Shown: positions 22,627 to 41,089 of the stretch, piece after piece
How the letters are laid out: the number at the start of each line of letters is the position of its first letter
Position numbering within the stretch: position 1 is the stretch's first letter
NCBI GenBank assembly: GCA_017532145.1
Contig: JAFXJR010000106.1
Span: 1 to 43,970 of the forward strand
Reading direction: 5' to 3'
Length of the DNA: 43,970 bases
Source: Lachnospiraceae bacterium
GTDB lineage: Bacteria; Bacillota; Clostridia; Lachnospirales; Lachnospiraceae
Program-made: the position numbers and the translations under genes
The notes under the pieces: model-generated
Told to the model about the DNA's origin: nothing
Databases searched by the model: none
What the model saw: the letters and a program-made list of their open reading frames with translations, nothing else

Positions 22627-22736
22627 ATAACTGTTCAGTACCCTCACAGTCACAAGGCAAAAATCCATGAAAATTCGTTACTATGACGTTTTCCTACGCT
22701 CAGCACAGCAAGTATGCTGACCTACTGAATAATTAC
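22627..22736 (+). repeat. Dispersed repeat copy A (110 bp)
   Basis: The copy begins ATAACTGTTCAGTA (22627-22640) and ends TACTGAATAATTAC (22723-22736), which are near-perfect inverted ends. It shares CCCTCAC, the ATCCATGAAAAT block and CAGCACAGCAAGTATG with copies B and C, but lacks about 23 bp in the middle that form an inner stem in copy B. It lies upstream of the GT2 gene on the gene strand. A 62-codon frame across it is not supported. Confidence 0.8.
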
Positions 22737-22846
22737 CTGTCTTTTTCTCTATTGTAGTCTCCCCCATAGGAAAACTGCAAGTAGTTTTTTCCACTTCCTG
22801 CCCTGATTCATTGCGTTGTTTTTTTGTATGCAAAAAAGTACATACT

Positions 22847-22876
22847 ATCATAGAGTTTTTCGTAGACATTTTCCAA
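22847..22876 (-). promoter_or_regulatory. Possible promoter of the glycosyltransferase pair
   Basis: On the minus strand TTGGAA (22871-22876) and TATGAT (22847-22852) are 18 nt apart. It is divergent to, and partly overlaps, the grcA promoter. It would give a leader of about 250 nt containing repeat copy A. It is a weak call because this AT-rich gap offers other matches. Confidence 0.3.
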
Positions 22877-22891
22877 ATCTAGTGATATGAT
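22863..22891 (+). promoter_or_regulatory. Promoter of the grcA-like gene
   Basis: TAGACA (22863-22868) and TATGAT (22886-22891) are separated by 17 nt, close to the vegetative consensus. The start codon is about 55 nt downstream of the inferred transcription start. It overlaps a possible divergent promoter for the glycosyltransferase genes. Confidence 0.6.
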
Positions 22892-22952
22892 ATAAACAAC
22901 AAAGCAATAACAGTTATCATTATTAACCATAGGAATCAAGGAGGAACCCATT

Positions 22953-23192
22953 ATGACAAACACAGCACAGGTAGATAACTTAGTAAATTTATTAGACGGA
23001 TACGCAGAGAAGGGCGGACATCATCTGAATGTAAACGTTCTGAACAGAGAAACTCTCTTAGATGCACAGAAGCATCCTGAGAAGTATCCTCAGCTGACTA
23101 TCCGTGTAAGTGGATATGCTGTTAACTTCATTAAGCTAACTCCCGAGTAGCAGACTGACGTTATCAACAGAACCTTCCATGAAGGTATGTAA
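22953..23192 (+). pseudogene. grcA: Short glycyl-radical (GrcA/PFL C-terminal type) protein with in-frame TAG
   Basis: The product matches the C-terminal glycyl-radical domain of pyruvate formate-lyase and of the stand-alone repair protein GrcA/YfiD. It contains [29 protein letters not shown] and RVSGYAVNF, where Gly54 would carry the radical. A TAG at 23148-23150 ends it at 65 residues. The same frame continues as QTDVINRTFHEGM to a TAA at 23190-23192, exactly the conserved end (family: LTPEQQ...). CAG to TAG is a single C-to-T change. Intact, it would be 79 aa, shorter at the N-terminus than the 127-residue E. coli protein. AGGAGG precedes the ATG and a terminator follows, so the unit looks like a real gene. 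It is the only plus-strand gene here. Confidence 0.85.
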
Positions 23193-23242
23193 TTAAAACG
23201 GATTGCACAATATTCTGTCTGTAGAATATCTCTTAAAAACCT

Positions 23243-23290
23243 AAAAAGGAGTCTCCAGAAAACCTGTTCTGTAGACTCCTTTTTTATTTT
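23243..23290. terminator. Bidirectional terminator between grcA and the XRE gene
   Basis: AAAAAGGAGTCT (23243-23254) pairs with AGACTCCTTTTT (23273-23284), with an 18-nt loop, and T tracts follow in both directions. It ends the plus-strand grcA transcript about 50 nt after the gene and the convergent minus-strand XRE transcript. Confidence 0.9.
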
Positions 23291-23295
23291 TATTT

Positions 23296-24114
23296 TTAAC
23301 TTATGTTATCACTATTCTGTTTATCTGGTCTGATACTATTATTCCGCTCACTATCTATATACTCCCCAACCTCCAACTTCATACGGATGGGTAACAATAA
23401 TAAATACCCAATCAATCCATACAAGGTACTAAGTAATGCAATACTTATAGAAGCAAATAAGCCTTGAGCAGAAACATCTGAACTTATATACGAATACATC
23501 ATTGCAATAAATCCTACACAGGTGACAAAAATCCCCATTCCCATCCAGGTATTGCTGACTAAACAAACGGCTGTTCTTGAACGTTTCTGCTCTACTGCAG
23601 ATACACCCTGTCTTCTGCCTGTTACTATGACAAATGCCTGCAAAAAATCTCTGCCTAAATTTGTTCCCAATAAAAACAAGAAGGTAACTATCAGCAGAGG
23701 CAGCAGAGATGGCAAATCCAATAACCAAAATCCCATACTGATTCCTCCATTGGATATAATCGTCAGTCCACCTCCTAATAAAACAGTTACCATTGTTACC
23801 CAAATAATAGTAACGGAATTCTCTCTTTTCTTCTTGTTGATTTCTGTTTCATGAATAAGATTCATCATATTTTCCTCCGCCTTTCTGGAATAGCCCTCCT
23901 CTGGCAAACGCTCTCCTGACAGCAACTCATTCACGTTAATTTGCAGCGTCTGACAAAGTGGGGTAATTGAGGATAGCTCTGGCATACCCTTACCGCACTC
24001 CCATTTCGATATCGTCTTGTTACTAACGCCAATGACATCAGCCAACTGCTGTTGTGTCATTCCCTGTTCCTTCCTTAACTCAGAAAGAAACCTTCCAATC
24101 TTCTCCTGATTCAA
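23296..24114 (-). CDS. XRE-family regulator with C-terminal membrane domain
   Basis: Residues 5-60 form a Cro/CI-type helix-turn-helix (GMTQQQLADVIGVSNKTISKWE). A linker follows, then four or five membrane helices (about 100-255). This layout is common in Firmicutes one-component membrane regulators of envelope or stress genes. The start is TTG at 24114 with GGAGG 7 nt upstream; an upstream promoter TTGTAT-17-TATGTT supports it. Its targets are unknown. It is convergent to grcA and shares a terminator with it. Confidence 0.88.
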   Translation of the reverse strand: MNQEKIGRFLSELRKEQGMTQQQLADVIGVSNKTISKWECGKGMPELSSITPLCQTLQINVNELLSGERLPEEGYSRKAEENMMNLIHETEINKKKRENSVTIIWVTMVTVLLGGGLTIISNGGISMGFWLLDLPSLLPLLIVTFLFLLGTNLGRDFLQAFVIVTGRRQGVSAVEQKRSRTAVCLVSNTWMGMGIFVTCVGFIAMMYSYISSDVSAQGLFASISIALLSTLYGLIGYLLLLPIRMKLEVGEYIDSERNNSIRPDKQNSDNIS

Positions 24115-24138
24115 AACAGTACCTCCTTTCTTGCCTTC

Positions 24139-24167
24139 AACATAACAAAAATCTCTTTTTCATACAA
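24139..24167 (-). promoter_or_regulatory. Promoter of the XRE regulator gene
   Basis: On the minus strand TTGTAT (24162-24167) and TATGTT (24139-24144) are 17 nt apart, and the TTG start codon is about 25 nt downstream of the -10. Short leaders like this are usual for regulators. Confidence 0.6.
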
Positions 24168-24320
24168 CAGCTTTACTGTAGAAATAGGTCTACTTATCGT
24201 GGAAAAACGGAAAACTGTCTTATTTTTATTTGTTTTCTGTCAAAAAAGAAGCTATCACAACATAAAATTTTTCTACAATATACGATATTGACTCAAAGAA
24301 AATCATACAATAGCCACTTT

Positions 24321-24420
24321 AGGTAGCCCTACCTATCGGGGTTGAAAGGTCGGAGGAAAAACCCGTTACAAGGACTGGGCAGTTACCAGCCTATGACCTT
24401 TAGGTCGTGGGTAGTTGACA
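24321..24420 (+). mobile_element. Orphan IS200/IS605-type right end or omegaRNA-like element
   Basis: The sequence is GC-richer than its surroundings and rich in hairpins: GGTA/TACC (24322-24333), CGGG/CCCG (24337-24365), CTGG/CCAG (about 24374-24389), and a terminal stem CTATGACC/GGTCGTGG (24391-24410) with loop TTTA. The terminal part ends GTAGTTGACA. This layout (GACC-TTTA-GGTC hairpin followed by a TTGAC-like end) resembles the right end of TnpB-carrying IS605 elements, where the omegaRNA is encoded. No tnpA or tnpB frame lies to its left: the XRE gene occupies that space on the other strand. I infer a solo remnant, a MITE or an exapted guide RNA. The 24168-24320 stretch before it holds no gene. 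Confidence 0.5.
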
Positions 24421-24424
24421 CGAA

Positions 24425-24844
24425 CTACTGTGTTTGATGTATCATTTTACCCTTTCCCTTTTCAGCTGTCATGGCTTCATGTTCTTTCTTTAATTCTTCC
24501 AACAGTTCCTCCGCCTTCCAGGTCTGATTGGCCTCTGTCACTACCGCTTTATACGGGATAGCCCCAATTCCTGCCTTACGGATGGCTCCAAGAACCATAT
24601 CCAGCCTGCCAGGTGTAACTCCTGCCATCACCAGCATCGGGCTGTCCAGAGTCTTTGTATGCTCTGCTTCTGGAGGAATCACTTCCTGAGTCATCAGCTC
24701 CTTATTGCCTGCTAAATAGCCTATGGGAAGGTGCATTTCCTCTGTTCCAACACTCTTTACTCTAAATTTAGCCATGAATAACTGTGTCATCAGCTTCTTT
24801 TGCTTGCTTGCCTCAAAGGCAAATAATAAGATACATTCTCTCAT
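24425..24844 (-). CDS. DUF3783-type small protein
   Basis: The 139-residue protein starts MRECILLFAFEASKQ and has the conserved block around LDSPMLVMAGVTPGRLDMVLGAIRKAGIGAIPYKAVVTEAN that I recognise as the DUF3783 family of clostridia. A basic, charged tail follows. The function is unknown. It follows queA by 130 nt with a strong leader hairpin and has its own AAAGGAAG ribosome-binding site. Its stop codon lies 5 nt beyond the omegaRNA-like element on the other strand. Confidence 0.75.
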   Translation of the reverse strand: MRECILLFAFEASKQKKLMTQLFMAKFRVKSVGTEEMHLPIGYLAGNKELMTQEVIPPEAEHTKTLDSPMLVMAGVTPGRLDMVLGAIRKAGIGAIPYKAVVTEANQTWKAEELLEELKKEHEAMTAEKGKGKMIHQTQ

Positions 24845-24875
24845 TTTATTCTTCCTTTCTTTAGTGATTGATAAC

Positions 24876-24915
24876 GATATGGCAGGCGATTTCCTTTTCC
24901 ATCACCTGCCATACC
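24876..24915 (-). other. 15-bp stem hairpin in the leader of the DUF3783 gene
   Basis: The arms 24876-24890 and 24901-24915 pair over 15 bp (with two G-U pairs on the minus-strand RNA) around a 10-nt loop rich in G and A. On the gene strand there is no U tract after it, and it ends about 30 nt before the start codon. It may therefore control or stabilise the mRNA rather than end the queA transcript. On the plus strand a T-rich run follows it. Confidence 0.55.
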
Positions 24916-24974
24916 TCTTTGTTTTATTAGAGCCTGTTTGAATACTGCTTTATTCTGCACATACTAAATATTGA

Positions 24975-26012
24975 TTATATAATTAACATCGCATCCCCAA
25001 AACTAAAAAAACGATAGGCTTCCTCCACTGCCATCTGATAGGCTTTCAGTACCTTTTCCCGACCTGCAAAGGCAGATACCAGCATCACCAGTGTAGACTC
25101 CGGCAGATGAAAGTTGGTAATCAGTCCATCCATTATTTTAAACTGATAGCCGGGATAGATAAAAATATCTGTATTTCCACTGCTTTCCTTTAGCATACCT
25201 TTTTCATCTGCCGCACTTTCAATGGTTCGGCAGCTGGTAGTACCTACACAGATAACTTTGCCTCCTGTCTGTTTGGTTTGATTAATTTTTTCTGCTGCCT
25301 CCCCGGTAATTTGATAATATTCTGTATGCATATGGTGATTGAGAATATTTTCCTCCTTCACCGGCCGAAAGGTACCCAACCCCACATGAAGAGTTACATA
25401 GGCGATATTTACGCCTTTTTCTTCTATTTTCTCAAGCAGCTCTTTCGTAAAATGCAAGCCTGCTGTAGGAGCTGCTGCAGAACCTTCATACCTGGCATAT
25501 ACCGTCTGATAACGATTCTTATCCTCCAGTCGGTGAGTAATATAAGGCGGCAGGGGCATTTCTCCCAGCTGATCCAGAACTTCTTCAAAAATTCCCTGAT
25601 AAGTGAAACGAATTAATCGATTACCTTCTTCCACTACCTCCAAAATTTCTCCCTGCAAGATCCCCTCACCAAAGCTTACCATGGCTCCCGGCTTCAATTT
25701 CTTTCCCGGCTTAACCAGAGCCTCCCATACATCCTTTTCCTTCCGTTTTAACAGCAATACCTCTATGGCTGCTCCTGTATCCTCCTTGACTCCCAACAGT
25801 CGAGCCGGAATAACTCTGGTATCATTTAACACCAAGCAGTCTCCAGGAGAAAGATAGTCTGTCACCTCCCGAAAGCCATGATGTTCCACACTCCCACTTT
25901 CCCGCCCAAGTACCAATAGGCGGGAATCTGAGCGATTCTCTAAAGGATCCTGAGCAATTAATTCCTGGGGCAATTCAAAATAAAAATCCGATTTTTTCCA
26001 TTCCTGCTTCAT
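24975..26012 (-). CDS. queA: S-adenosylmethionine:tRNA ribosyltransferase-isomerase
   Basis: QueA transfers the ribosyl part of SAM to preQ1-modified tRNA to form epoxyqueuosine. The 345-residue length is normal. Typical blocks are [26 protein letters not shown] at the N-terminus, [15 protein letters not shown], and [11 protein letters not shown] with [20 protein letters not shown] in the C-terminal half. It lies downstream of the M18 aminopeptidase with repeat copy B between them. The usual partner tgt is not in the window. Confidence 0.96.
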
Positions 26013-26043
26013 CTTTCTGCCTCATTTATTGTTTATCCTAAGC

Positions 26044-26176
26044 GTAACTGTTCAGTACCCTCACAGCTACCATGCAAAAACCCATGAAAATCGCCTACGG
26101 GATGGGATTTTTGCTCGTTACTGCTACGTTTTTCTATGGTCAGCACAGCAAGTATGCCGACCTGTTGAACCGTTAC
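26044..26176 (+). repeat. Dispersed repeat copy B (133 bp)
   Basis: The copy begins GTAACTGTTCAGTA (26044-26057) and ends with an inverted partner, TGTTGAACCGTTAC. An inner stem is formed by GCAAAAACCCAT and ATGGGATTTTTGC (about 26073-26114). It begins 31 nt after the queA start on the far side and touches the stop codon of the M18 aminopeptidase (2-nt gap), so it fills the whole intergenic space between these genes. It shares long blocks with copies A and C. Confidence 0.85.
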
Positions 26177-26178
26177 TC

Positions 26179-27591
26179 CTAAGTATTCTTTAAAAAGGCA
26201 GCATAGCCCCTCTTTGCTTCATAAACGTCTGCCTTGTTTGTGGCCTCCCAGGGGGAATGCATATTGAGAACCGCCACACCGCTGTCTATCACATCCATAC
26301 CATAACGAGCCAGAATATAGGCAATAGTTCCTCCACCACCTAAATCCACTCTACCCAGTTCTGCCGTCTGAAAATGTACCTGTTCCTTCTCAAAGATAGC
26401 TCTTAGCTGTGCCAAATACTCTGCATTGGCATCGTTGGAACCGGATTTTCCTCTGGCACCCGTAAATTTATTTAATACCAGCCCTTTGCCCATATAAGCC
26501 ACATTCTTTTTGTCAAAACTGGAAGCATAAGAAGGATCAAAGGCACTGCTTACATCTGAAGAAAGCATCTTTGATGCTGACAAACACCTTCTGAGAGCCA
26601 GCTCACTGTAGCCTCCCATCAGATTCATTACCTCTGCTACCATATTTTCAAAAAAACGAGACTTCATACCAGTAGCACCTACACTGCCTATTTCCTCTTT
26701 ATCTACCAGTATACAGCAGGCAGTTTTTTCCGTCTCTTTCAGCTCCAGCATAGCTTCTAAGGAAGAAAAGGCACAGACTCTGTCATCCTGTCCATAAGCT
26801 AAAATCATACTCCTGTCAAATCCAGCCTCCCTGGCTTTACCTGCCGGAACCACCTCCAGCTCTGCTGAAATAAAGTCTTCTTCCTCTATATGGTAAGCTT
26901 CCTTTAAAATAGCCAGAATCCCTTGTTTTACTGCTTCCTTACCAACTTCCTTTTTTTCCTCCCCTTCCTGCTCCTGCTGCAGAAGCAAGGGCTTATTGCC
27001 AATAATTACATCCAAAGCCTCACCCTCTATTACCTTGGCGGCCTTCTTCTCCAGTTGTTCTGCTGCCAGATGCACCAGTAAATCTGACACAAAGAAAACC
27101 GGATCTTCTTCATCGTCACCTACATGAATCTCCACTGTGGTGCCATCCTTTTTCATCACTACTCCGTGAATAGCCAAAGGAAGAGTTACCCACTGATACT
27201 TTTTCACCCCACCATAATAATGGGTATCCAGATAGGCAAATCCCCCTTCCTCATATAAAGGATTCTGCTTAATATCCAGTCTGGGGGAATCAATATGGGC
27301 ACCCAGAATATTCATTCCTTCCTCCAGTGGCTTTTCTCCTATTTGGAAAAGAATAATGGATTTATTCATCCATACTGCATAGACCTTGTCTCCTTTTTTC
27401 AGTGTTGCCTTTTCCTCAATCAAAGTCTGCAGCTCACGATATCCTGCTTCTTTTGCAGAATTGACGATATAATCAATACATTCCCTTTCCGTTTTTCCCC
27501 TGTCTAAAAACTCCCGATACCGCAGGGCATGGGCTTCCAGTTCTTCTAACTGGTGGGCATTATAGGTTTCCCATACATTTTTTCTCTCCAT
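26179..27591 (-). CDS. M18-family aspartyl aminopeptidase
   Basis: This is a zinc aminopeptidase of the M18 family, which removes N-terminal acidic or neutral residues from peptides in the cytosol. The 470-residue protein has the metal-binding HIDSPRLD motif (NILGAHIDSPRLD), the catalytic DKEEIGSVGATG block, and the C-terminal MHSPWEATNKAD motif. These are the signatures of the bacterial M18 group. It lies 32 nt after pheT, probably in the T-box-controlled transcript. Substrate preference is inferred from family only. Confidence 0.93.
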   Translation of the reverse strand: MERKNVWETYNAHQLEELEAHALRYREFLDRGKTERECIDYIVNSAKEAGYRELQTLIEEKATLKKGDKVYAVWMNKSIILFQIGEKPLEEGMNILGAHIDSPRLDIKQNPLYEEGGFAYLDTHYYGGVKKYQWVTLPLAIHGVVMKKDGTTVEIHVGDDEEDPVFFVSDLLVHLAAEQLEKKAAKVIEGEALDVIIGNKPLLLQQEQEGEEKKEVGKEAVKQGILAILKEAYHIEEEDFISAELEVVPAGKAREAGFDRSMILAYGQDDRVCAFSSLEAMLELKETEKTACCILVDKEEIGSVGATGMKSRFFENMVAEVMNLMGGYSELALRRCLSASKMLSSDVSSAFDPSYASSFDKKNVAYMGKGLVLNKFTGARGKSGSNDANAEYLAQLRAIFEKEQVHFQTAELGRVDLGGGGTIAYILARYGMDVIDSGVAVLNMHSPWEATNKADVYEAKRGYAAFLKNT

Positions 27592-27623
27592 TCATACTCC
27601 TCCTGATTCTACTCTTTGTCTTC

Positions 27624-30044
27624 CTACTGTCTTAATTCTATCCCCAGACCCTCCAGTCCATTCAGGATTTTTTTCATTGCTGCCGAAACATCACTCTCCT
27701 CCAGCGTTCTGTCCTTTGCCCGGAAGGTAATGGAATAAGCCACAGACTTAAATCCCTCCTTAATCTGCTTACCTTCATAAATGTCAAACAGATTATATGA
27801 CTCCAGCAGCTTACCACCTCTTTGTGCAATGACTGCTTCAATTTGTCCCACCAGAATCTCTCTGGGCACTACCATACTAATGTCTCTGGAAACTGCCGGA
27901 TATTTAGCAATACCCTCATACTTTCTGTCAAAGGTAGCAAAAGGAACGATTTCCGGCATATCCAATACAGCTACATAGACTCTGGTATCTATATCATAGT
28001 TGTCACAAACCTCCGGATGTACTTCACCCAGATAGCCTACCAGCTTACCTTCATATAGAATATTAGCCTGTCTGCCAGGATGAAGGAAGGGCTTGCCTGC
28101 TGATGGCTCATAGACTGCCTTCTGCTTCATTCCGATTCCTTCAAAAAATTCCTCCACTACCCCTTTCATTGTATAGAAATCACCCTCTCCATACATTCCC
28201 AGAGTAAACTGCATCCTTTCTTCAGGCAACTCTGTTAAAGGCAGGGATTTTGGCACATAGATGTTCCCCAGCTCATAAAGACGTACATCTTTATTTCTTC
28301 GATTATAATTGGTAGCCAGACTGGTCATGATACCATGGAGAGAAACCGTTCGCATCACAGAAAAATCTTCTCCTAATGGATTGGAAATGGTAATTGCTTC
28401 TCTCAGCTTGCTATCCTCAGGCAATAATAGCTTGTCAAATACCTTGGGACTTTCAAAGGAATAACACATTCCCTGAGAGAAACCACAGTATTCTGCAATG
28501 TCCCTAGCTTTTGCCTCGATTCTTAGCTTAAAGGGCAGCTTACCGGTAGTAGCTTCTCCTTTAGGCAGAGAAACAGGAATCTTATCATATCCATAAAATC
28601 TGGCCACTTCCTCCGCGATATCGGCAAAACCTTCCAAATCTTGACGAAAAGAAGGAATTCCTAATAACTGCGTTTCCGAATCGTACTTCAACTCAATGTT
28701 CTGGAAAATTTCCAGCATTTCTTCTGCACTAATCTGAGTACCCAGCAGGCGATTAATTTTCTCCGGCTCAAAGGGAATCTTTCTGCAGTCTGGCAGCGGC
28801 ACACACACATCTACCATACCAGCTACCACCTCTCCGCAGCCCAGCTCCTGAATCAATTGGCAGGCACGGTTAATCGCAGCCTCTGCATTGTGCGGATCCA
28901 GACCCTTTTCAAACTTTCCGGAGGCATCCGTTCTTAACCCGATTCTTTTTGCTGATTTACGAATATTGATTCCATCAAAGGTGGCTGCTTCAAACAGAAC
29001 AGTCTTTACAGAATCGGTAATTTTGGAATTTTCTCCTCCCATAATACCTGCAATACCAATTTCCTTCTCTCCATCACAAATCATCAATACTTCCGAATCC
29101 AGCTTTCTTATCTGACCATCCAATGTCTGAAACTCATCTCCATCCTTTGCACGACGTACCACAATCTTCCTTCCTGCAATGGTATCCAAATCAAAAGCAT
29201 GCATAGGCTGTCCGTACTCCTCCATCACATAGTTGGTAATATCTACCAGATTGTTAATCGGACGGATACCACTGGCTGCCAAGCGTCTCTGCATCCAGGA
29301 AGGAGAAGGACCAATCTTAATATTTGTACAGACTCTGGCAATATATCTCGGGCAAAGTTTTGTATCTTCTACCTCCACAGAAATATAATCTTCTACTCTT
29401 TCTTCCGTTTCCTTCACTTCCACCACAGGAGATTGAAAAGGCTTTTTAAAAGTAGCTGCTGCCTCTCTGGCAATACCCAGTACACTATAGCAGTCTACCC
29501 GATTAGAAGTCACTTCATATTCAAAAACCGTATCCCTTAATCCCAGCACTTCTACGGCATCACTGCCTACTGCCACCTCATCGGAAAAAATATAGATACC
29601 ATCCTCCGGTGCTTCCGGATACATTTCTCTGCTGCTGCCCAGCTCCTCAATAGAACACATCATTCCATAAGAAGGAACTCCTCTCAGTTTACCTGCTTTA
29701 ATGGGAATCCCTCCCTCTGGCAATGGACTGCCATCATGACCGCCTGCCACCCGGCCTCCATCCAAAACTACAGGTATCTTATCTCTTTCCTTTACATTGG
29801 ATGCTCCGGTAACAATCTGAACTACCTCGCTCCCCACATTTACCTGACATACAATCAGTTTATCTGCATCGGGATGCTTTTCAATTTTTTCTATCTGACC
29901 TACTACAATCTTTTCCAGATTTTTATCCAGACGCTCATAGCCCTCTACCTTGGTTCCTGACAACGTCATAGCATCACAGTATTCATGGTCTGTACAATCC
30001 AGCTCCGGTACATATGCTTTAATCCATGATAATGCTGTATTCAT
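27624..30044 (-). CDS. pheT: Phenylalanine-tRNA ligase beta subunit
   Basis: This is the beta subunit of the heterotetrameric PheRS. The 806-residue protein has the N-terminal tRNA-binding OB domain (residues about 40-150, VGQIEKIEKHPDADKLIVCQVN), B3/B4 editing domains (TSNRVDCYSVLGIAREAAA), the B5 region and the C-terminal ferredoxin-like anticodon-binding domain (YEGIAKYPAVSRDISMVV). It is intact and lies 35 nt after pheS. Confidence 0.97.
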   Translation of the reverse strand: MNTALSWIKAYVPELDCTDHEYCDAMTLSGTKVEGYERLDKNLEKIVVGQIEKIEKHPDADKLIVCQVNVGSEVVQIVTGASNVKERDKIPVVLDGGRVAGGHDGSPLPEGGIPIKAGKLRGVPSYGMMCSIEELGSSREMYPEAPEDGIYIFSDEVAVGSDAVEVLGLRDTVFEYEVTSNRVDCYSVLGIAREAAATFKKPFQSPVVEVKETEERVEDYISVEVEDTKLCPRYIARVCTNIKIGPSPSWMQRRLAASGIRPINNLVDITNYVMEEYGQPMHAFDLDTIAGRKIVVRRAKDGDEFQTLDGQIRKLDSEVLMICDGEKEIGIAGIMGGENSKITDSVKTVLFEAATFDGINIRKSAKRIGLRTDASGKFEKGLDPHNAEAAINRACQLIQELGCGEVVAGMVDVCVPLPDCRKIPFEPEKINRLLGTQISAEEMLEIFQNIELKYDSETQLLGIPSFRQDLEGFADIAEEVARFYGYDKIPVSLPKGEATTGKLPFKLRIEAKARDIAEYCGFSQGMCYSFESPKVFDKLLLPEDSKLREAITISNPLGEDFSVMRTVSLHGIMTSLATNYNRRNKDVRLYELGNIYVPKSLPLTELPEERMQFTLGMYGEGDFYTMKGVVEEFFEGIGMKQKAVYEPSAGKPFLHPGRQANILYEGKLVGYLGEVHPEVCDNYDIDTRVYVAVLDMPEIVPFATFDRKYEGIAKYPAVSRDISMVVPREILVGQIEAVIAQRGGKLLESYNLFDIYEGKQIKEGFKSVAYSITFRAKDRTLEESDVSAAMKKILNGLEGLGIELRQ

Positions 30045-30079: not shown

Positions 30080-31104
<1,025 letters not shown>

Positions 31105-31273: not shown

Positions 31274-31560
31274 AAAAAAACCCTGACAATTCATGCCAGG
31301 GACGGATTCTTCCGCGGTACCACCCATATTCCTGTTTTATCCTAAACAGGCACCTCTCCACATAACGTGTGTAAACGTCCTGCACTCCTTATTTTCGCAC
31401 AGGAAGCTCCAGTGGGAATTTCAAGCTACATCTGAACTGAAGGAAGCTTCCAGCCAATGGCTTCCTCTCTCTGACAGAAAATGCAGCTCTAACGGCAGAC
31501 CTTTTTTTGCTGTCAACTACAATTCTTCATCCAGCCTGCCCACACCTTCTCAGCCTTTTC
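31274..31560 (-). promoter_or_regulatory. T-box riboswitch controlling pheST
   Basis: The minus strand carries the T-box core GGGTGGTACCGCG (31313-31325) in an antiterminator, followed by a competing terminator stem CCCTGGCA/TGTCAGGG (31281-31301) and a U tract (31274-31280). Upstream lies a long stem I region with paired arms such as GGAAGC/GCTTCC. TTC in GAAATTCCCAC (31416-31418) is a fitting Phe specifier, but I placed it by eye. Uncharged tRNA-Phe would favour read-through into pheS, pheT and the M18 aminopeptidase, and possibly queA. The promoter was not clearly identified in 31560-31650. The 31105-31273 stretch is leader without another gene. Confidence 0.92.
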
Positions 31561-32543: not shown

Positions 32544-34912
32544 CCTGCCTCCTTTTCTTCATAAATATTTCTTACCTCACAGTTCTGATAAAAAAAGGTG
32601 AGAATCCCATCTGCTGACTGTCCCTGCTGTGCCATCTGTCTTGCTGCATTTTGTGACATTCCCACACCATGACCATAGCCTCCTCCGGTAAGATGATAGC
32701 CCTCCAGTTCTTCTCCATTCTTTTTTACTGTAATCGTAAAATAGGCACTGGGGAGCAGGCTGGCAGCCGAAGCTTCACTTCCATCCTGTCTGATTATTTT
32801 GGTTTTTCCATCACTAAGTACATACCGAATATTATATTCTGATATCACCTTATAAGTGTTTTTTGTTCCTTTTATTATCAGCTCATCAGCTACTCCGCCC
32901 CTTCCTCTTTTTACAATCTGCAAATCCTGTAAGCTACCCAGATTTTTTAAAGGTACACTTTCATAGTCTCCTTCTTTTGTTTGTGTTAAAATCAGTTCAG
33001 GATTGGTCTCAAAACGCTTTTTCAGTCTCTCCATCATTTCCTCTTCCTCTGCTTCTTCTACCTGATAAGACCAGCGATACCAGGCTTCCTCACTTTCGTA
33101 GTCGGAGGAAGCTCCATGGGAAATAAAGGCAGCAAATGTCTCCTCATCCATCATATTTTCACTGGTGTAGCCCCCATCTTCTGTTCCAATCCGTCCTCCC
33201 AAAAGATACGAGGTGTCCTGCTGACTTTCTGACTTCCATACTCCTGTATCTGTACCAAATCCACAGGAGGTAGAATAGTAATAGGCTCCACAAAGCTCAT
33301 CTCCATAGTATAAAAGTTTTCCGCTTGTTTCCTTTACTGCCTTTGTGGTCTGTGCATTTTCCGAAATATTATTATAGACCTGATAGCTTACACTGTCATC
33401 CACATGGGCTCCAAAACGTCCTGCTCCAGAACTTTGCATATACCGATAAGCATAGGTTCTGGCACACACTGCCTGAGCCTTCAGCGCTTCCAGAGGATAG
33501 GATGCAGGCATTTCACTGGGTACTACCGAATACAGATATTCCTCCAATAAAACCTCATTAATTATAATCAGCCCTTCCTTTGTCTTTGCAACCTCCATCC
33601 TTCCTCTATAAGCTGGCTCTCCCTGTGACCGCTCCACCGACAGCAGCGATATTTTTCCGGTTTGTGCCTTTGGCTCTATAGATATTCTTTCTTCCTTAAG
33701 ATAGTCACTGTTCTCTTCAATCTCAACCACTTCTCCAGCCCGAAACTCCTTGATTTTCCTATCTCCATACTCACCATAAGAAAGAATAAAATCTGTATCT
33801 GCAGTACAAACCACCTTTTCATGATATACATCAGCAAATCCTGTATTTTTAATTAAAACGCGGATATGCTCCATAGCTTCATCCCGGCTAATCAAACCTG
33901 CACAGACCTTTCCATCTTCTATCACAAAATCAGTAAACTCATAACCAATACGAAGGTCACTAAGCTTCCCTTCTTCCAGACGATTATACAGACGATATAC
34001 CTTCATATCCTCCTGATAGGGATAGTTTCCTACTCCTTCTATCTCCAGTATACCATCTCCTATACGAAGCAGCTTTCCTCCAATCTTTTCTTTTTTTACC
34101 TTTATGGACTGCAGTTTGCCATCTGAAAACTCCAAATCTGTTACCTGCTCCCGTTGCTCCTTTTGTATCTCCCCAAAGGAAATCCAAATTTCATGTTCTT
34201 TGTAAAAAATCTGAAGACCATCTTCTTCTGCCTCTATTACCCAGATATTTTTCAATTTCATAGAAGAATCCAGTATACTAATTGGAGTCAGTAAAATTCC
34301 ATTCTTACTATAGGCAATTAATCGTTGATATTGCTGACGGGAAAATAAATCAGACTGATAGGTGTAGATTCCTTCCTCTGCCAGTAAACTATACTCTGTC
34401 AAAGGCTTTCCTTCCCTGTCTGCCACTTGATTCCCTGTTCCCAATACCGTTACCTCTATCTTTTGAATACTGCTCCCTATTCCTTCTGCTTCTATCCAAC
34501 TGTCATAAAACTGATGCCAGTCCTGGATAAGCAGAAAGGATTCCTTCCCATATTTTTTTGCATAGTCTGCTTTAAGCTTCTGACAGTATTTTCTTTTAGA
34601 AGCCTGATCAGCAGATACATCTGCTTTTCTCTCTTCTTCCAGTAAACTTACCAACTGTTCAAACTGTCTATAGGTTATTAAGCTTTCACTGTCTGCTTCT
34701 TCTATTTTCTGCAATTCTATGTAAACATTATGGTTACGATAGCTTTCATTTAAAGCCTCTACTAAGATTAATACATCCTGCAGCCTAGCAAACTCCCCCT
34801 CAGGCTGACCGCCTCTGTCTGTTCTCAGGCTGACTATAAAAATATAAGCTATAATGAAAATACCCAGTACAGTCAGTAGAAGCTTTATTAAATACCCTAG
34901 TCTGATACCCAT
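32540..34912 (-). CDS. SpoIID/LytB-domain cell-wall protein
   Basis: The 790-residue protein has an N-terminal membrane anchor (residues about 7-27), a long extracytoplasmic region with no recognised domain, and then the SpoIID/LytB domain. That domain contains LLEEYLYSVVPSEMPASYPLEALKAQAVCARTYAYRYM (family landmark) and the C-terminal GGGYGHGVGMSQNAARQMAQ block. SpoIID acts as a lytic transglycosylase on denuded peptidoglycan during engulfment. The catalytic Glu in PSEMP is present. This protein is much longer than B. subtilis SpoIID, so it may be a vegetative or amidase-enhancer homologue. GGGGG lies 7 nt before the ATG. Confidence 0.88.
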   Translation of the reverse strand: MGIRLGYLIKLLLTVLGIFIIAYIFIVSLRTDRGGQPEGEFARLQDVLILVEALNESYRNHNVYIELQKIEEADSESLITYRQFEQLVSLLEEERKADVSADQASKRKYCQKLKADYAKKYGKESFLLIQDWHQFYDSWIEAEGIGSSIQKIEVTVLGTGNQVADREGKPLTEYSLLAEEGIYTYQSDLFSRQQYQRLIAYSKNGILLTPISILDSSMKLKNIWVIEAEEDGLQIFYKEHEIWISFGEIQKEQREQVTDLEFSDGKLQSIKVKKEKIGGKLLRIGDGILEIEGVGNYPYQEDMKVYRLYNRLEEGKLSDLRIGYEFTDFVIEDGKVCAGLISRDEAMEHIRVLIKNTGFADVYHEKVVCTADTDFILSYGEYGDRKIKEFRAGEVVEIEENSDYLKEERISIEPKAQTGKISLLSVERSQGEPAYRGRMEVAKTKEGLIIINEVLLEEYLYSVVPSEMPASYPLEALKAQAVCARTYAYRYMQSSGAGRFGAHVDDSVSYQVYNNISENAQTTKAVKETSGKLLYYGDELCGAYYYSTSCGFGTDTGVWKSESQQDTSYLLGGRIGTEDGGYTSENMMDEETFAAFISHGASSDYESEEAWYRWSYQVEEAEEEEMMERLKKRFETNPELILTQTKEGDYESVPLKNLGSLQDLQIVKRGRGGVADELIIKGTKNTYKVISEYNIRYVLSDGKTKIIRQDGSEASAASLLPSAYFTITVKKNGEELEGYHLTGGGYGHGVGMSQNAARQMAQQGQSADGILTFFYQNCEVRNIYEEKEAG

Positions 34913-35150
34913 TTTTTATCCCCCAAAATTAAATTTTTAGATAGACCCTAGTATAATCCACTTTGCCATTTACTTATCCTTTATTACGACAAAGTGAGAC
35001 AAAGCAGGGAAGTATTCTATCCTCTACCTGACACAAGCAAGTTCCCTGGTCTACCAAGTAGCGTTCACTACGAAGTACAGAATGGACTTACACTCGGTGT
35101 GTTTGAAATAGGAAGCTTTCTTGATTTGGTTAAATACTCCTCTAAGCTAC
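34913..35150. other. Intergenic stretch without a recognised feature
   Basis: The part next to the SpoIID-like gene has a possible -10, TATACT (minus strand, about 34951), but no good -35. From about 34985 to 35150 the sequence is less AT-rich than the rest of the gap and an uninterrupted 64-codon plus-strand frame (34994-35188) crosses it. That frame lacks a ribosome-binding site and ends in the terminator hairpin of the neighbouring ncRNA gene. I recognise neither a protein nor an RNA family. Confidence 0.3.
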
Positions 35151-35179
35151 AAAAAAGCAGCCAAATGGCTGCTTTTTTT
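35151..35179. terminator. Bidirectional terminator at the end of the ncRNA gene
   Basis: GCAGCC (35157-35162) and GGCTGC (35167-35172) enclose AAAT, with six A on one side and seven T on the other, so it works in both directions. On the minus strand it defines the 3' end of the ncRNA. Confidence 0.88.
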
Positions 35180-35388
35180 CTTTCGTAGTATACTACTTTT
35201 ATGACCCCCAAAATGCCGCTTCCTGTCCTTTGACTCCTAGCTATGCTAGGTGGGTAACCGCAACCTCACTTTTGCCTTCCCCTCCAATCCTCTTTTGAGT
35301 GGGGGCTTGACAGCCATCAGGCAATATAGGAATCCCGTTTAAAGTAAATGTAGGTTCAAAATAACAGGAGTTATCGTACATCCCAGGT
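35152..35388 (-). ncRNA. Independent structured ncRNA gene, about 235 nt
   Basis: A consensus promoter lies just upstream (TATAAT at 35396-35401) and the RNA ends in the hairpin terminator at 35151-35179. No coding frame is credible. On the minus strand the RNA can fold as a long rod. TCCTGT near the 5' end pairs with ACAGGA near the 3' end, and TTGCCT pairs with AGGCAA. CCCC and GGGG close the apical arm, and CCTAGC/GCTAGG forms a small side hairpin on the 3' strand of a large internal loop. Rods with a side hairpin occur in 6S RNA, and compact RNAs of this size in clostridia include the raiA motif; I cannot decide between these or a new class. Confidence 0.6.
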
Positions 35389-35395
35389 TACTTCT

Positions 35396-35424
35396 ATTAT
35401 ATCCAAAGATATATAAAAATACAA
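35396..35424 (-). promoter_or_regulatory. Strong promoter of the ncRNA gene
   Basis: On the minus strand TTGTAT (35419-35424) and TATAAT (35396-35401) are spaced 17 nt. It lies 32 nt after the stop of the large SLH gene and points away from it toward the ncRNA. Confidence 0.75.
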
Positions 35425-35455
35425 CTGTAAATTTTAGAAATACTACCAAATTTTT

Positions 35456-38400
35456 TTATTCGTAAGGGATATATTTATTTTCAAAACGCATCAGCATTGC
35501 TGCACATTCTGCTCTGGTTGCTTCTCCCTTCGGATCCATACGATAGGTCTTTCCATCATCATTAGGCTTACCAGTAATCATCTTTACTGCTGTTGCCCAT
35601 TTCATATAGTCCACTGCCCAAGGACTAACCTCTGATTCATCAGTAAAAGAGGACAGTTCCTGAGTTTCAGAAATATCATAACCTATGCCCTTTGCATACT
35701 CATAAAGCATCTTGGCAATCTGCTCACGGGTAATATTATGATTGATTCCGTAGCTTCCATCACCCAGTCCCTGCACAATTCCTTTCTGGTTCGCCCAGAT
35801 AATCGCATCACTATACCATTTTTCAGCCTCTACATCACTGAAGGTAGCCGCAAAATTTACATCAGGCTCACCTGCCATACGGTAAAGTACTGTAGCAAAC
35901 ATTGCTCTGGTCAACGGACTGTCAGGCTCAAATAAGGTAGTTCCTGCAATTCCGTTCATAATACTGTTATCCCATACATATTTCACACATTCATGCTTCC
36001 ACTGGTTATTCTGCTCAATATCAGTGAACGGGAACTTTCTATCCATCAGATAGGGAGTTCTTACAATCTTACTGCTATCCATTCCCTGTTTTACTGCAAT
36101 CGCTCTGAACGGCATTCTTCTGTTAATCCAGATAGGACCGGTATACTTCAGACTGTCAGTAGTAGGGTCAGTTCCATCTACCGTGTAGTAGATATCTGCT
36201 CCTTCAGTGGGTGTGGTAATCTGAATGTACATATCCTTATTATAAGTACCTGCAACCGGAGAAAATATGGGAGCTGATACTCTTTTTACTGCTACAGAGG
36301 TATTGATTTCAAATTTACCTATTGCTATCTCACTGGCTACATTGTTTTTGTAAGCAATTGCCTTAATAGTAGTAGTCTTCGTTATGGTAATCGGTGAGGT
36401 ATATCTCTTACTCATATTCGTAGGCTTACTTCCATCAATGGTATAATAAATAACAGCACCTTTCGTTTCACTCTCTATCCCTACGTTGATAGAAGATTTA
36501 TAGGTCTCCGGCTCTGGAGAAAAGGTAGGAGCTTTGGGTGCATCAGGGGACACTACTTCTGCTTTAGGTGTCGCTGTAGCTCTTGCTTCTTCCCCATTTC
36601 CTGCATCAGTTACTCCACGCACCTTAAACGTATAGTTTGTCCCATTCTTCAAGCCTGTAAAAGTATGACCGGTAGTACTATCTGCTTCCACCCATGTCCT
36701 TCCACCATCCTTAGATACTTCATATCGGGTTACTTCTCCTTCCAGCTCTTTCCAGCTTAAGGTTACTTCACCATCACCGGCCTCTGCTGCAAAATCCTCA
36801 GGTGCTGTCAAAGGGTCAGGTAATACGATTTCCTGTGGAGTTGCTGTTGCCGTTGCCTCCGGGCTTCTGCCTACATCATTTACGGCACGCACCTTAAAGG
36901 TATATTCCTGACCATTCATCAAACGGGCAAAAGTATGCCCCGTCTTACTGCTGGCTTTTGTCCAGGTTTTTCCTCCATCTTTGGAAACCTCATATCCCGT
37001 TACTTCTCCTTCCGATTCTGTCCAGCTCAGTTTTACCCATCTATCCCCTGGTGTTGCCTTAAAGTTGGTAGGAGCCTCCGGTGCTGTTGGTATTACTGGT
37101 TCTTCAGGAGTAGCTGTAGCAGCTGCTTCTGCTCCATTTCCTACATCGTTTACCGCACGTACTTTAAAGGTATACTCTGTACCATTTGTCAATCCGGTAA
37201 AGGTGTGACTTGTGGTACTGTCAGCCTGTGTCCAGGTTTTTCCTCCATCGCTGGAAACCTCATATCTGGTTACTTCTCCTGCTACTTCTGTCCAGCTTAA
37301 ACTTACCTGACTATCTCCTGCCTGTGCTTTAACATTAGTAGGTGCTGCCGGTGCTGTAGGTACCACTTCTTCCACAGGGGTAGCCGTAGTAGTTGATGCC
37401 TCACCACTTCCTTCACTACTTATCGCACGTACCTTAAAGGTATATGTTCTTCCATTAATCAAACCGGTAAAGGTATGGCTGGTATTACTGCTGGCCTGTA
37501 CCCATCGAGTACCATTATTCATCGAAACCTCATATCTGATAATATCTCCCTCTACCTCATCCCAGCTTAAAGTTACCTGACCGTCTCCTGCTACTGCAGT
37601 AAAGTTCTCAGGTGCTGAAGGTAATATAATCTGTGCTACAGGAGTAGCCTTAGTCGTTGCCGCTGCACCATTTCCATTATCATTTACGGCACGTACTTTA
37701 AAGGTATACTCTGTACCATTCGTCAGTCCAGTAAAGGTATGACCTGTGCTGCTGTCTGCTGTTACCCACTGATTTCCTCCATCCATGGAAACCTCATATC
37801 TGGTCACGTCTCCCACTACCTCATTCCAGCTTAAGGTTACTTCTCCGTCTCCTGCCTGTGCTTCAAACCGGGCAGGTGCTGCCAGAGTTACCGGAACAGA
37901 AGGTTCTGCCTTAGGAGTAGCTGTAGTACTTGCTTCTGTACCTGCTCCAGCATCATTTACTGCACGTACGGTAAAGGTATATTCCTGATTATTGGTTAAG
38001 TTAGTGAAGGTATATTCTGTACCACCCTCAACGGTTATCCATTCCTCCTCGTCCACACGTACTTCATAACTGGTCGCTCCTTCTACTTCTGTCCAGCTTA
38101 ACGTTACCTGCTTATCACTAGGAGTGGTTGTTAAACCTGTAGGAGTGGCTGGAAGTTCTGGTGTAGGATTTTCGCCTGCGGTTGGAGTTGCTGTCACTTC
38201 TTGTGACTCTGTACCATGTACATCATCTTTTACCGCACGTACTTTAAGGGTATATGTCTGATCATTGTTCAGTCCTGTAAAGGTATGGCTGGTATTGCTT
38301 TCTGCTGTCTCCCACTCACCACCATCGATACAAACCTGATAACCAGTAGCACCCTCTACCTCTGTCCAACTCAAGGTTATCTGACTATCTTCTGCTCTTG

Positions 38401-40099
38401 CAGTAACATCTGCAGGAGCTTCTGGTACTGCTGGTGCAGGGGGTTCTTCTACGGTAGGAGTAGCTTTAATACTTGCTTCTGCACCCTCTCCTGCTTCATT
38501 TACTGCACGTACCTTAAAGGTATATTCTGTATCATTCGTTAATTGAGTAAAAGTGTGACTAGTATTATTTTCAACAGCTTCCCATTCACCATCATCTACA
38601 CATACCTCATAACTGGTCGCTCCTTCTACCTCATCCCAGCTTACAACCACTTGTGTATCCCCAGGGGCAGCTACCAAATTTTCAGGAGCTGCCGGAACTG
38701 TTACTGCAGCCTTAGGAGTAGCTGTTACTTCATCTGACTCTGCTCCTGTCAAATCATTATTTACCGCACGCACTTTAAAGGTATATTCTATGTTGTTTTC
38801 TAACTCTGAAAAAGTATAACTTGTTTCCGTACCTGCTGATACCCACTGATTATCTTTACTACAGAAAACTTCATATCCAGTTACATTCTCAGCTACTGCT
38901 GTCCAGGTTAAGACTACTTCACTATCTCCTGGGGTAGCATTTAAATCTGTTGGTGCTACTGGTGTATTTTCTGCATCTACCAGAGCATCATTCACTGCTT
39001 TTGTATATTCATTAATTTCAGCTTGAGTTAGAATTTCATCGGTAATTGTAATATAAGCAATTTCACCTTGAAAAGAAGCTACAATAGTGTCACCATTCTT
39101 TACACCACCAACACTCAACCTATTCAAATTTGTTAAATGAGAAAAGAAACCTGTCACAGCACTATTATCAAAACTTACTTTTGGTGTACCATTATAAGCA
39201 GAAATTGCTTTTTGACTAAGCAACTTTTTATCTACATCACATACCACTGCAAAAGTAGCCCATTGATCGACAGGTGCTGTACCTGTATAACCTGATCTAA
39301 AATTTGAACCAAAATCCACTCTTATAAAACTATCTCCTTGAGAAACCTCCTGAAATAGTGTAGCTCCCTGATTAACAGTCATTATAGAACCTGGTCCTGC
39401 TGCTGTAGGAAAAGCTGTACCTTCACTTGCCATAAAAAATAAAGCTTTTCGGCTATTGTTGACAAATGTCTTTGGCTTATAAGAAATTAATATTGTACCA
39501 TCTTTTAAATCTTTAATCTTATTAATATCTTCTATCGTTCCTACTTCTACACGTGAACCATTAAAATTTACATCACCTTCTTGCACAAAGTTTCTGTGAT
39601 ACTGCCCTGTCTGTGCATGCTTGTGTACAGCATCCAAACCAGTTACATATATATCTTGGGCGGTTCCCACTGTAACAGCACTTCCATCATCTTTCATGGC
39701 TTCAATCTTATACCAAAATTGTGTACCAGTACCAGCAGAAGTATCATAATAGATAAACTCCTTTTGTTCATCACTAGATGTGATTGTTTCTACATTTATT
39801 TTTGTAAATCCATCTGTTTGATTATTAGATCTGTATACATCATAACCAGTTGCTCCATCAATACCAGTAAAGCAAATCTTATTACTACTAACTCTCGCCT
39901 CTACCGTAACAGTTCCTGCCTCTGTCTGATTTTCATTCTCTGTGGTAGTGTTCCCTTCTGTAGCTGTCTCACCACTTTCTGTATTATCTGTTACTTCCGT
40001 AGCATACGCTATCGACATGGGTAAAGCTGTATAGATGCCGCCCAACACGCTTGACACTGTCAAACCAAGTGCCAATAGTTTTGCACAAAATCGTTTCAT
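35456..40099 (-). CDS. Large SLH surface protein with lectin-like domain and nine FN3 modules
   Basis: The 1547-residue exported protein has a signal peptide (1-33) and a Thr/Glu-rich linker. A degenerate FN3-like unit follows (about 63-155). Next is a concanavalin-type domain (about 160-375) resembling the sialic-acid-binding N-terminal domain of sialidases (CBM40), for example NLNRLSVGGVKNGD. Then come nine FN3 modules of about 90 residues (about 379-1188), two chitobiase C-terminal-type modules (APTFSPEPETY and APIFSPVAGTY, about 1189-1356), and three SLH repeats (about 1357-1547) for non-covalent wall attachment. No catalytic domain was found. FN3 modules 5-9 are very similar (GLTNGTEYTFKVRAVND), suggesting recent duplication. 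AGGAGG lies 12 nt before the ATG. It looks like a glycan-binding surface adhesin. Confidence 0.9.
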   Translation of the reverse strand: MKRFCAKLLALGLTVSSVLGGIYTALPMSIAYATEVTDNTESGETATEGNTTTENENQTEAGTVTVEARVSSNKICFTGIDGATGYDVYRSNNQTDGFTKINVETITSSDEQKEFIYYDTSAGTGTQFWYKIEAMKDDGSAVTVGTAQDIYVTGLDAVHKHAQTGQYHRNFVQEGDVNFNGSRVEVGTIEDINKIKDLKDGTILISYKPKTFVNNSRKALFFMASEGTAFPTAAGPGSIMTVNQGATLFQEVSQGDSFIRVDFGSNFRSGYTGTAPVDQWATFAVVCDVDKKLLSQKAISAYNGTPKVSFDNSAVTGFFSHLTNLNRLSVGGVKNGDTIVASFQGEIAYITITDEILTQAEINEYTKAVNDALVDAENTPVAPTDLNATPGDSEVVLTWTAVAENVTGYEVFCSKDNQWVSAGTETSYTFSELENNIEYTFKVRAVNNDLTGAESDEVTATPKAAVTVPAAPENLVAAPGDTQVVVSWDEVEGATSYEVCVDDGEWEAVENNTSHTFTQLTNDTEYTFKVRAVNEAGEGAEASIKATPTVEEPPAPAVPEAPADVTARAEDSQITLSWTEVEGATGYQVCIDGGEWETAESNTSHTFTGLNNDQTYTLKVRAVKDDVHGTESQEVTATPTAGENPTPELPATPTGLTTTPSDKQVTLSWTEVEGATSYEVRVDEEEWITVEGGTEYTFTNLTNNQEYTFTVRAVNDAGAGTEASTTATPKAEPSVPVTLAAPARFEAQAGDGEVTLSWNEVVGDVTRYEVSMDGGNQWVTADSSTGHTFTGLTNGTEYTFKVRAVNDNGNGAAATTKATPVAQIILPSAPENFTAVAGDGQVTLSWDEVEGDIIRYEVSMNNGTRWVQASSNTSHTFTGLINGRTYTFKVRAISSEGSGEASTTTATPVEEVVPTAPAAPTNVKAQAGDSQVSLSWTEVAGEVTRYEVSSDGGKTWTQADSTTSHTFTGLTNGTEYTFKVRAVNDVGNGAEAAATATPEEPVIPTAPEAPTNFKATPGDRWVKLSWTESEGEVTGYEVSKDGGKTWTKASSKTGHTFARLMNGQEYTFKVRAVNDVGRSPEATATATPQEIVLPDPLTAPEDFAAEAGDGEVTLSWKELEGEVTRYEVSKDGGRTWVEADSTTGHTFTGLKNGTNYTFKVRGVTDAGNGEEARATATPKAEVVSPDAPKAPTFSPEPETYKSSINVGIESETKGAVIYYTIDGSKPTNMSKRYTSPITITKTTTIKAIAYKNNVASEIAIGKFEINTSVAVKRVSAPIFSPVAGTYNKDMYIQITTPTEGADIYYTVDGTDPTTDSLKYTGPIWINRRMPFRAIAVKQGMDSSKIVRTPYLMDRKFPFTDIEQNNQWKHECVKYVWDNSIMNGIAGTTLFEPDSPLTRAMFATVLYRMAGEPDVNFAATFSDVEAEKWYSDAIIWANQKGIVQGLGDGSYGINHNITREQIAKMLYEYAKGIGYDISETQELSSFTDESEVSPWAVDYMKWATAVKMITGKPNDDGKTYRMDPKGEATRAECAAMLMRFENKYIPYE

Positions 40100-40159
40100 T
40101 TCTTTTGCAACCTCCTTGTTTTATCTCCTTAGGATATAACCCATTGCTTGTATAATGAC

Positions 40160-40188
40160 ACCTTAGCACATCATACAATCTTTTTCAA
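40160..40188 (-). promoter_or_regulatory. Promoter of the large SLH gene
   Basis: On the minus strand TTGAAA (40183-40188) is 17 nt from TAAGGT (40160-40165), which has TGC directly in front. It gives a leader of about 55 nt that ends in AAGGAGG. The gap 40189-40226 to the LUD gene is AT-rich and shows no terminator. Confidence 0.45.
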
Positions 40189-40226
40189 TAAATATAATAT
40201 TTATATCGACAAAGAATACTTAATTC

Positions 40227-40868
40227 CTAATACCCCAATTCCTCTCCAATCAGGATAACCTTGATTCTTCCCGGAATTGTGGAATGTCTGGTAATCACTG
40301 TCTGACTGCAGATACAATCCGATGAATGGCAGTCATGGCATCTGCCTGTAGAGGCACAGGGCGTCTTTCTTCCTAAACGAGCCGTATTGGGTGGAGCTGC
40401 TGCTACCCTTACTCTTTTACAGCCACTTTCTACATCCTCCACCAGCTTATTCATTCCTGCGAGTATAACTACATTTTCTGGTCCAAAACAAAGAAAAGCT
40501 ACCCGACTTCCCCGTCCATCCACATTGACTAATTCCCCATCCAAAGTAATCGCATTAGTACTCATAAAAAAGAAGTCACAGCCGCAAATCTTTGCATAAA
40601 TTTCTTTTTGCTGGGCAGGAGTTTTCGCACTCTCTCTGTCGATTACCTGATATGTTCCCTTCTTTAAGGCATCAATAAGACCAGTTTCTATTAATGTCAT
40701 CGAGCCGCCCCAGGCCACACTACTGTTATCCGGCATTAGTTCCAATGCCAGTTTAACCGCACTTTCCCTGTCCGGGCAATAATACCCTTCCATCTGCCGT
40801 TTTTTTAGATTTTTTATTATTGTATCTGCCACTGACTGATAGTATCGTTGTTTTGGTGAAAGTTCCAT
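40227..40868 (-). CDS. LUD-domain protein (LutC-like)
   Basis: The 213-residue protein matches the LUD (lactate utilisation) domain family: NSSVAWGGSMTLIETGLIDALKKG near residues 45-75, DFFFMSTNAITLDGELVNVDGRGSRVA in the middle, and a Cys-rich part (CASTGRCHDCHSSDCIC). Cysteine-rich LUD proteins of anaerobes are often stand-alone, and their function is not known. AGGAG lies 7 nt before the ATG at 40868. A terminator-like hairpin lies only 24 nt upstream of the start codon, leaving no room for a separate promoter. Confidence 0.85.
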   Translation of the reverse strand: MELSPKQRYYQSVADTIIKNLKKRQMEGYYCPDRESAVKLALELMPDNSSVAWGGSMTLIETGLIDALKKGTYQVIDRESAKTPAQQKEIYAKICGCDFFFMSTNAITLDGELVNVDGRGSRVAFLCFGPENVVILAGMNKLVEDVESGCKRVRVAAAPPNTARLGRKTPCASTGRCHDCHSSDCICSQTVITRHSTIPGRIKVILIGEELGY

Positions 40869-40891
40869 CCCATTTCTCCTTTTATTCGGTG

Positions 40892-40934
40892 AAAAAAGAT
40901 ACCGTTTCCCGACTAAAAGCCGAGTTACGGTATC
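40892..40934 (-). terminator. Terminator-like hairpin directly upstream of the LUD gene
   Basis: On the minus strand GATACCGT and ACGGTATC (40898-40934) form a stem with an inner C/G-rich part, followed by six U (40892-40897). It would end the pckA transcript after repeat copy C. Because it is also in the leader of the LUD gene, it may be a conditional attenuator. Confidence 0.75.
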
Positions 40935-40952
40935 CTAATTCCTGCTTATTAT

Positions 40953-41089
40953 GTAACCGTCCAGTACCCTAACCATTACTATGCAAAAACTCATGAAAAT
41001 CACCTATGGCGATAGAATTTTTACTCATTGCAACTACGCTTTCCTATGATCGTCGGCCCAACAAGTGTGCTGACCTACTGAATAGTTAC
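40953..41089 (+). repeat. Dispersed repeat copy C (137 bp)
   Basis: The copy begins GTAACCGTCCAGTA (40953-40966) and ends TACTGAATAGTTAC (41076-41089). It shares CCCTAACC, TGCAAAAACTCATGAAAAT, the inner-stem region and AACAAGTGTGCTGACC with copy B, at lower identity. It lies 37 nt downstream of the pckA stop codon, ahead of the terminator at 40892-40934. Confidence 0.8.

Follow-up and report, generated by a model that had tools for sequence, protein, structure and literature searches.

Correia, RUP, and ERIC sequences are short, non-coding elements with inverted ends that occur in many copies in bacterial genomes. Other bacterial MITEs have ends and duplication lengths that differ from those of the repeats described here. 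Among elements that encode a transposase, ISDge4 of the ISBst12 group carries the ends GTGACTACTCAGCA and GTAACTGCTCAGCA, is flanked by an 8-bp repeat, and has been observed to transpose (PMC12898284). Two other IS66 elements have 8-bp repeats, as judged from the columns of a table in a second source (PMC3281130).

The window analyzed here is a 43,970-nucleotide stretch of DNA from a Lachnospiraceae bacterium. Its intergenic spaces contain a family of dispersed repeats (Table 1) that, on the evidence of sequence comparison, are very likely non-autonomous MITEs, mobilized in trans by transposases that belong to the single-ORF ISBst12 type of the IS66 family. They form a new family within a known class of element. 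The coordinates, lengths, ends, and common plus orientation of the long copies are as described in the original prediction, which listed a MITE among several guesses about their nature. That guess is now strongly supported by 8-bp duplications, empty sites at copy B, ends of the IS66 type, and copy number.

Table 1. Repeat copies in the window, their flanking duplications, and the parts of copy B
Feature	Position	Strand	Description
Copy A, 110-bp element	22627..22736	+	Middle hairpin minus its 3' arm; flanks form a 7/8 duplication
Copy A duplication	22619-22626 / 22737-22744		ctttcttt / ctgtcttt; 7/8
Copy B, 133-bp full element	26044..26176	+	Flanks form a 7/8 duplication
Copy B duplication	26036-26043 / 26177-26184		tcctaagc / tcctaagt; 7/8
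Copy C, 137-bp full element	40953..41089	+	Flanks form an 8/8 duplication
Copy C duplication	40945-40952 / 41090-41097		cttattat on both sides; 8/8
27-bp form (H1 unit only)	13671..13697	+	Flanks form an 8/8 duplication
27-bp form duplication	13663-13670 / 13698-13705		ggatatcc on both sides; 8/8
H1 of copy B	26044..26070	+	Left unit of 27 bp, made up of the left terminal repeat and an inner ACAGCTAC; direct reading and alignment
H2 of copy B	26074..26114	+	Middle hairpin; module missing in the ~90-bp class
H3 of copy B	26138..26162	+	Right hairpin, apex loop GCAAG
Right terminal inverted repeat of copy B	26163..26176	+	Diverged from the usual GTAACTATTCAGTA

From left to right, the full element consists of H1 (27 bp, containing the left end and an inner repeat), the middle hairpin H2, the right hairpin H3, and the right end. 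The two ends are imperfect terminal inverted repeats of ~14 bp (GTAACTGTTCAGTA on the left and GTAACTATTCAGTA on the right) that pair around H2 and H3. Copy B is inserted at the stop codon of an M18 peptidase gene; the TAG of this gene lies inside the right-hand duplication. Copy A had been described as missing the middle of the element. By reading, the 3' arm of the middle hairpin is indeed gone, but the 5' arm is retained, and the remaining sequence looks like a junction formed at TCG. The 27-bp block was similarly a real feature, but its designation as a solo end does not hold, because the block has a perfect 8-bp repeat of its own, GGATATCC, on either side and so represents a complete 27-bp form. 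It sits ~50 bp upstream of the RF3 gene, which has a probable GTG start at 13620. The minus strand of the window also contains a T-box leader (31295-31516; RF00230, 93.9 bits, barely above the gathering score of 93), a 6S RNA (35201-35392; RF00013), and, near copy C, a gene (35456-40099) for a 1547-amino acid protein in which nine fibronectin type III stretches accompany an S-layer homology domain.

The original prediction counted three copies and one further end. These sites are real, but they are far from the total. Searching the host assembly (2,595,317 bases in 134 contigs, 87% complete) with a covariance model returned at least 147 matches at E values up to 0.01, of which 143 fell below 0.001; all three long copies of the window are included. 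The figure of 147 is probably a lower bound, since 150 of 1321 candidates were scored. Most matches are ~90 or ~134 bp in size, and the element is too short to encode a transposase. A blast search of the same assembly with copy B gave 42 matches (40 scored candidates). When up to one mismatch was allowed, TAACTGTTCAGTA occurred 94 times in the forward and 116 times in the reverse direction in the host assembly, compared with once in each direction for a reversed control pattern, which excludes a chance origin. The closed genome of a member of the same genus (G011) contains 176 end matches compared with 210 in the host.

A search of relatives that had been suggested with the original prediction revealed model matches in 26 of 150 family genomes and blast matches in 9 of 61 genomes, with the host counted in both. 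Among the matches listed, the named carriers of the exact unit comprise Blautia species, Oliverpabstia intestinalis, Murimonas intestini, and numerous Lachnospiraceae MAGs, which point to Lachnospiraceae as the family in question. The plasmid search for the element produced no match, and the viral contigs contained no exact match to the 27-mer. Three phage records (MT837311, MT836459, and MT839789, unannotated fecal 'Bacteriophage sp.') each contain one copy with ~81% identity, which reflects either host DNA or phage carriage. A search of open papers returned no name or description for the family.

All four copies in the window are flanked by 8-bp target-site duplications. For fetched full copies, whose ends were set by the terminal repeat alone, the duplication matched at 7 or more of 8 positions in 37 of 53 host copies (perfect in 27), compared with 2.3% of shuffled pairs. 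The corresponding values for full copies from other genomes were 57 of 65 (perfect in 43) and 1.8%. Duplications below 7/8, which were found at 16 of the 53 host copies and 8 of the 65 others, count against assignment of the repeats to MITEs of the IS66 type. The length of the duplication is constant; when registers of 5-11 bp were tried, perfect matches appeared at 8 bp only. The genes that flank copy B are separated by 166 bp in the host. The site is empty in all 14 other same-genus genomes with a match, where these genes lie 5-121 bp apart and the sequences are too diverged to display an intact 8-base target; one further genome of the genus had no match to the gene pair. Presence and absence at a syntenic site is therefore observed for copy B, the sole copy compared.

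Coding IS66 elements with similar ends are found in related genomes. In L149, GTATCTGTTCAGAACCCCC and GTAACTGTTCAGAACCCCC flank an IS66 ORF; the better match of the two agrees with a MITE end at 13 of 14 positions and the second at 12, and both ends of this element are present without a matching duplication. L256 and L257, the latter from the host's genus, each yielded a single end, GTAACTATTCAGAACCCC, that matches a MITE end at 13 of 14 positions. In each of these three cases, an end of the form GTA(A)CT(G/A)TTCAGAACCCC lies close to the transposase gene. L142, which belongs to a related branch, contains a complete IS66 element of 2358 bp with the ends GTTACTGTTCACACCCTA and GTTACTGTTCAGACGCTA (end type GTTACTGTTCA) and an exact 8-bp duplication, GCCGGAAT. 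The L149 and L142 elements, 1.8 and 2.4 kb in length, are both coding. Pfam assigns the transposases to IS66; with NCBIfam, the L149 protein scores above the cut-off and those of L127 and L142 score below. The L149-type transposase is rare; at E values up to 1e-60 it was detected in 1 of 16 genus genomes and in 2 of 299 family genomes, a figure that counts the genome from which L149 comes. The IS66-like element in L127 (1298-3584) encodes a 565-amino acid transposase and a 112-amino acid ORF, the latter unmatched in both Pfam and NCBIfam at E values up to 0.01. It has an exact 8-bp duplication and, by reading, is apparently inserted in a relative of the MITE.

No match to the IS66 transposase (PF03050) was found in the host assembly, which is 87% complete, or in the closed genome G011. 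This result counts against the IS66 assignment and makes any donor in the same cell hypothetical; a transposase in the same genome is not required of relics or of elements moved in trans. Widely spaced ends in G011 suggested an autonomous copy, but the two regions read contained separate 27-bp and full copies only and no transposase between the ends. The repeats do not appear to be internal-deletion derivatives that share subterminal sequence with the coding elements, as these sequences differ by reading. The lack of the MITE interior in the IS66 elements likewise counts against the assignment: an H3-type hairpin was recognized in 23 of 31 MITEs and in 1 of 5 IS66 stretches when 6 of 8 stem pairs were required. 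A threshold of 7 of 8 proved overly stringent, as it recovered 12 of 31 MITEs.

The interior of the element is organized around paired sequences. We aligned 31 representatives (12 from the host and 19 from other genomes), a set derived from 34 cluster representatives by removing 4 (L161, L181, L207, and L250) that have a different type of H3 and adding L002. Of 1013 pairing cells, 95.5% are paired, compared with 32-39% when the partner is slid along. Double changes occur in 14 of 33 pairs, and the 54 double-change cells compare with a shuffle mean of 12.0; none of 500 shuffles reached 54. The terminal stem and the two hairpins therefore covary, and the fold is unusually conserved for a MITE family. 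The original prediction had proposed an alignment to look for covariation and target-site duplications, both of which were found. It also held that the idea would fail if only these copies existed, if covariation were absent, or if the blocks matched a known named element; the searches made gave none of these results. Imperfect palindromes can undergo templated correction during repair, and covariation alone is for this reason not proof of selection.

In distant lineages, the layout is kept and the stems are different. Duplications matching at 7-8 of 8 positions flank 12 of 16 such elements, the ends of which were chosen partly by duplication; in L339, L342, L349, and L352 the match is 5/8 or less. 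The 16 were drawn from 19, with L337, L344, and L345 left out because they were mislocated. By reading, the apex loop (C/T)TT(A/G)C or its complement is present in 11 of 13 H3 hairpins, a count that leaves out L341 and L343 (another H3 type) and L352. The interior is modular in that H1, H2, and H3 are gained, lost, or shortened. Loss of H2 (the ~90-bp class) or of both H2 and H3 (the 27-bp class) is common. Longer variants of 182-233 bp (L198 4061, L211 252, L195 5744, and L228 3342) carry additional hairpin sequence in a nested arrangement, and their duplications match at 7-8 of 8 positions; these variants suggest that modules are added as well as lost.

The element also has a preferred direction. 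The H1-left strand is antisense to co-directional flanking genes in 27 of 29 host copies (28 tandem copies pooled with 1 inside an ORF), 35 of 45 copies in G011, and 35 of 52 on named contigs, where long and short copies contribute 27 of 36 and 8 of 16, respectively. With respect to replication, the H1-left strand runs against the leading strand in 31 of 40 host copies and 45 of 58 copies in G011, including 24 of 31 short forms of the latter. In G011, the switch in GC skew falls between 1.80 and 2.06 Mb, and 36 of the 49 exact end matches in this genome are directed against the leading strand. Where tandem genes run against replication, the element is antisense in 3 of 6 cases (host and G011 stretches) and 4 of 10 cases (named contigs). 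At convergent and divergent sites, the leading strand is opposed in 4 of 9 and 7 of 11 cases in the host and G011 stretches and in 19 of 25 cases on named contigs. Gene direction and replication direction are not separable as drivers of the bias in these counts, which use greedy ORF calls in stretches taken mostly from large contigs or from the surroundings of known end matches. Moreover, rates for the 27-bp and long classes are biased, since detection required duplications of at least 6/8 for the former and 4/8 for the latter.

This antisense placement, together with the covarying stems and the recurrent H3 apex loop, is what would be expected if the repeat were a structured RNA or an mRNA 3'-end or processing element, the transcript of which acts on flanking genes and the mobility of which is incidental. 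The original prediction raised an RNA element of this kind as a possibility, but the sequence provides no support for it and we consider it unlikely. The inner stems contain 14 G-T and 19 A-C cells; A-C mispairs and G-T pairs thus have similar frequencies, which indicates that neither strand is favored as RNA. The terminal stem is asymmetric (32 G-T versus 9 A-C cells), an imbalance that comes largely from a single position in the unequal ends. In addition, the copies have no match in Rfam at E values up to 5, H2 or H2 and H3 are often lost, and the site of copy B is empty in every comparable relative. A secondary effect at the transcript level may nonetheless accompany the orientation bias. 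The operator-like unit, the remaining guess of the original prediction, gains no support from these results.

The 27-bp forms probably arose from longer copies as deletion remnants. Such a form is the expected product if sequence is deleted between the direct repeat ACAGTTAC, which lies in H1, and its right-end counterpart A(C/T)AGTTAC. Other short sizes (40, 49, 60, and 82 bp) exist, some with duplications, and the sequence of the 40-bp form suggests a junction at a CAGTA repeat. The T typical of the right end (CATA...) was found in 4 of 31 short forms and at the equivalent place in H1 in 0 of 27 long copies of G011, as deletion junctions would give, although these numbers are small. The contrary reading, in which the 27-bp form is itself mobile and inserts as 27 bp, appears improbable to us. 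It would account for the presence of this form in several genera, for its abundance in G011 (31 of the 58 copies detected in the stretches of that genome, versus 1 of 40 in the host stretches), and for the duplications of at least 7/8 at 30 of 82 units that lack the right end and were tested at 27 bp (shuffled, 0.7%). However, only ~8 bp of its right end resemble the terminal repeat, and the direct repeat is placed where a deletion would yield 27 bp. The orientation of the short forms, which is biased against the leading strand in G011 and evenly divided relative to genes on named contigs, gives mixed evidence.

It is very improbable that the repeat is a REP/REPIN-like palindrome whose spread depends on a Y1 (RAYT) transposase or on some other mechanism that requires hairpins: REP/REPIN palindromes are likewise small intergenic hairpins in high copy, and the H3 apex recurs, but single-strand HUH transposition leaves no target duplication of the kind seen here, and the present element has both 8-bp duplications and IS66-type ends.

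Mobilization by an IS66 transposase would proceed as follows. The enzyme, since lost or missing from the assembly, would have bound both ends and inserted the element mostly into AT-rich intergenic DNA, leaving the 8-bp duplication. Deletions between short repeats would later account for at least part of the loss and shortening of hairpin modules. To generate the 27-bp forms, the direct repeats in H1 and at the right end may recombine or slip across the intervening palindromes, an event that would remove ~106 bp and keep the duplication. Nearly precise excision of Tn10 is a comparable deletion process. Two processes could maintain the hairpins, namely selection for the structure itself or the templated correction that imperfect palindromes undergo. 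It is possible, although doubtful, that H2 and H3, with its apex type GCA-(C/T)TT(A/G)C-TGC, are selected parts recognized as folded DNA or RNA by a transposase, a replication protein, or an RNA-binding protein; a structured, strand-oriented element would in that event have spread through much of the Lachnospiraceae with its stem sequences freely replaced.

These repeats constitute a high-copy mobile element that occurs widely within one of the major groups of gut bacteria and is tied to the little-studied ISBst12 branch of IS66. The family supplies many natural cases of insertion and of shrinkage to a 27-bp scar, and its definition would allow many unannotated intergenic repeats in such genomes to be named. 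The conserved fold and orientation bias raise the question of whether a MITE moved by a DDE transposase needs internal hairpins; the bias raises the further question of whether replication or transcription sets the direction of the element.

The family resembles other bacterial MITEs, including MITEAba12, in being short and non-coding with inverted ends and many copies. The conserved multi-hairpin interior and the 27-bp remnant class are features that set it apart from bacterial MITEs in general. It shares ends (13/14) with the elements of L149, L256, and L257 and an exact 8-bp duplication with that of L142. ISDge4, like the MITE, has a duplication of 8 bp (PMC12898284). The slightly unequal 14-bp ends of ISDge4, GTAACTGCTCAGCA and GTGACTACTCAGCA, match the left and right MITE ends at 12 and 11 of 14 positions, respectively, and a CTG/CTA difference is common to both elements. 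ISDge4 differs in encoding a transposase; its likeness to the MITE lies in the ends and the duplication.
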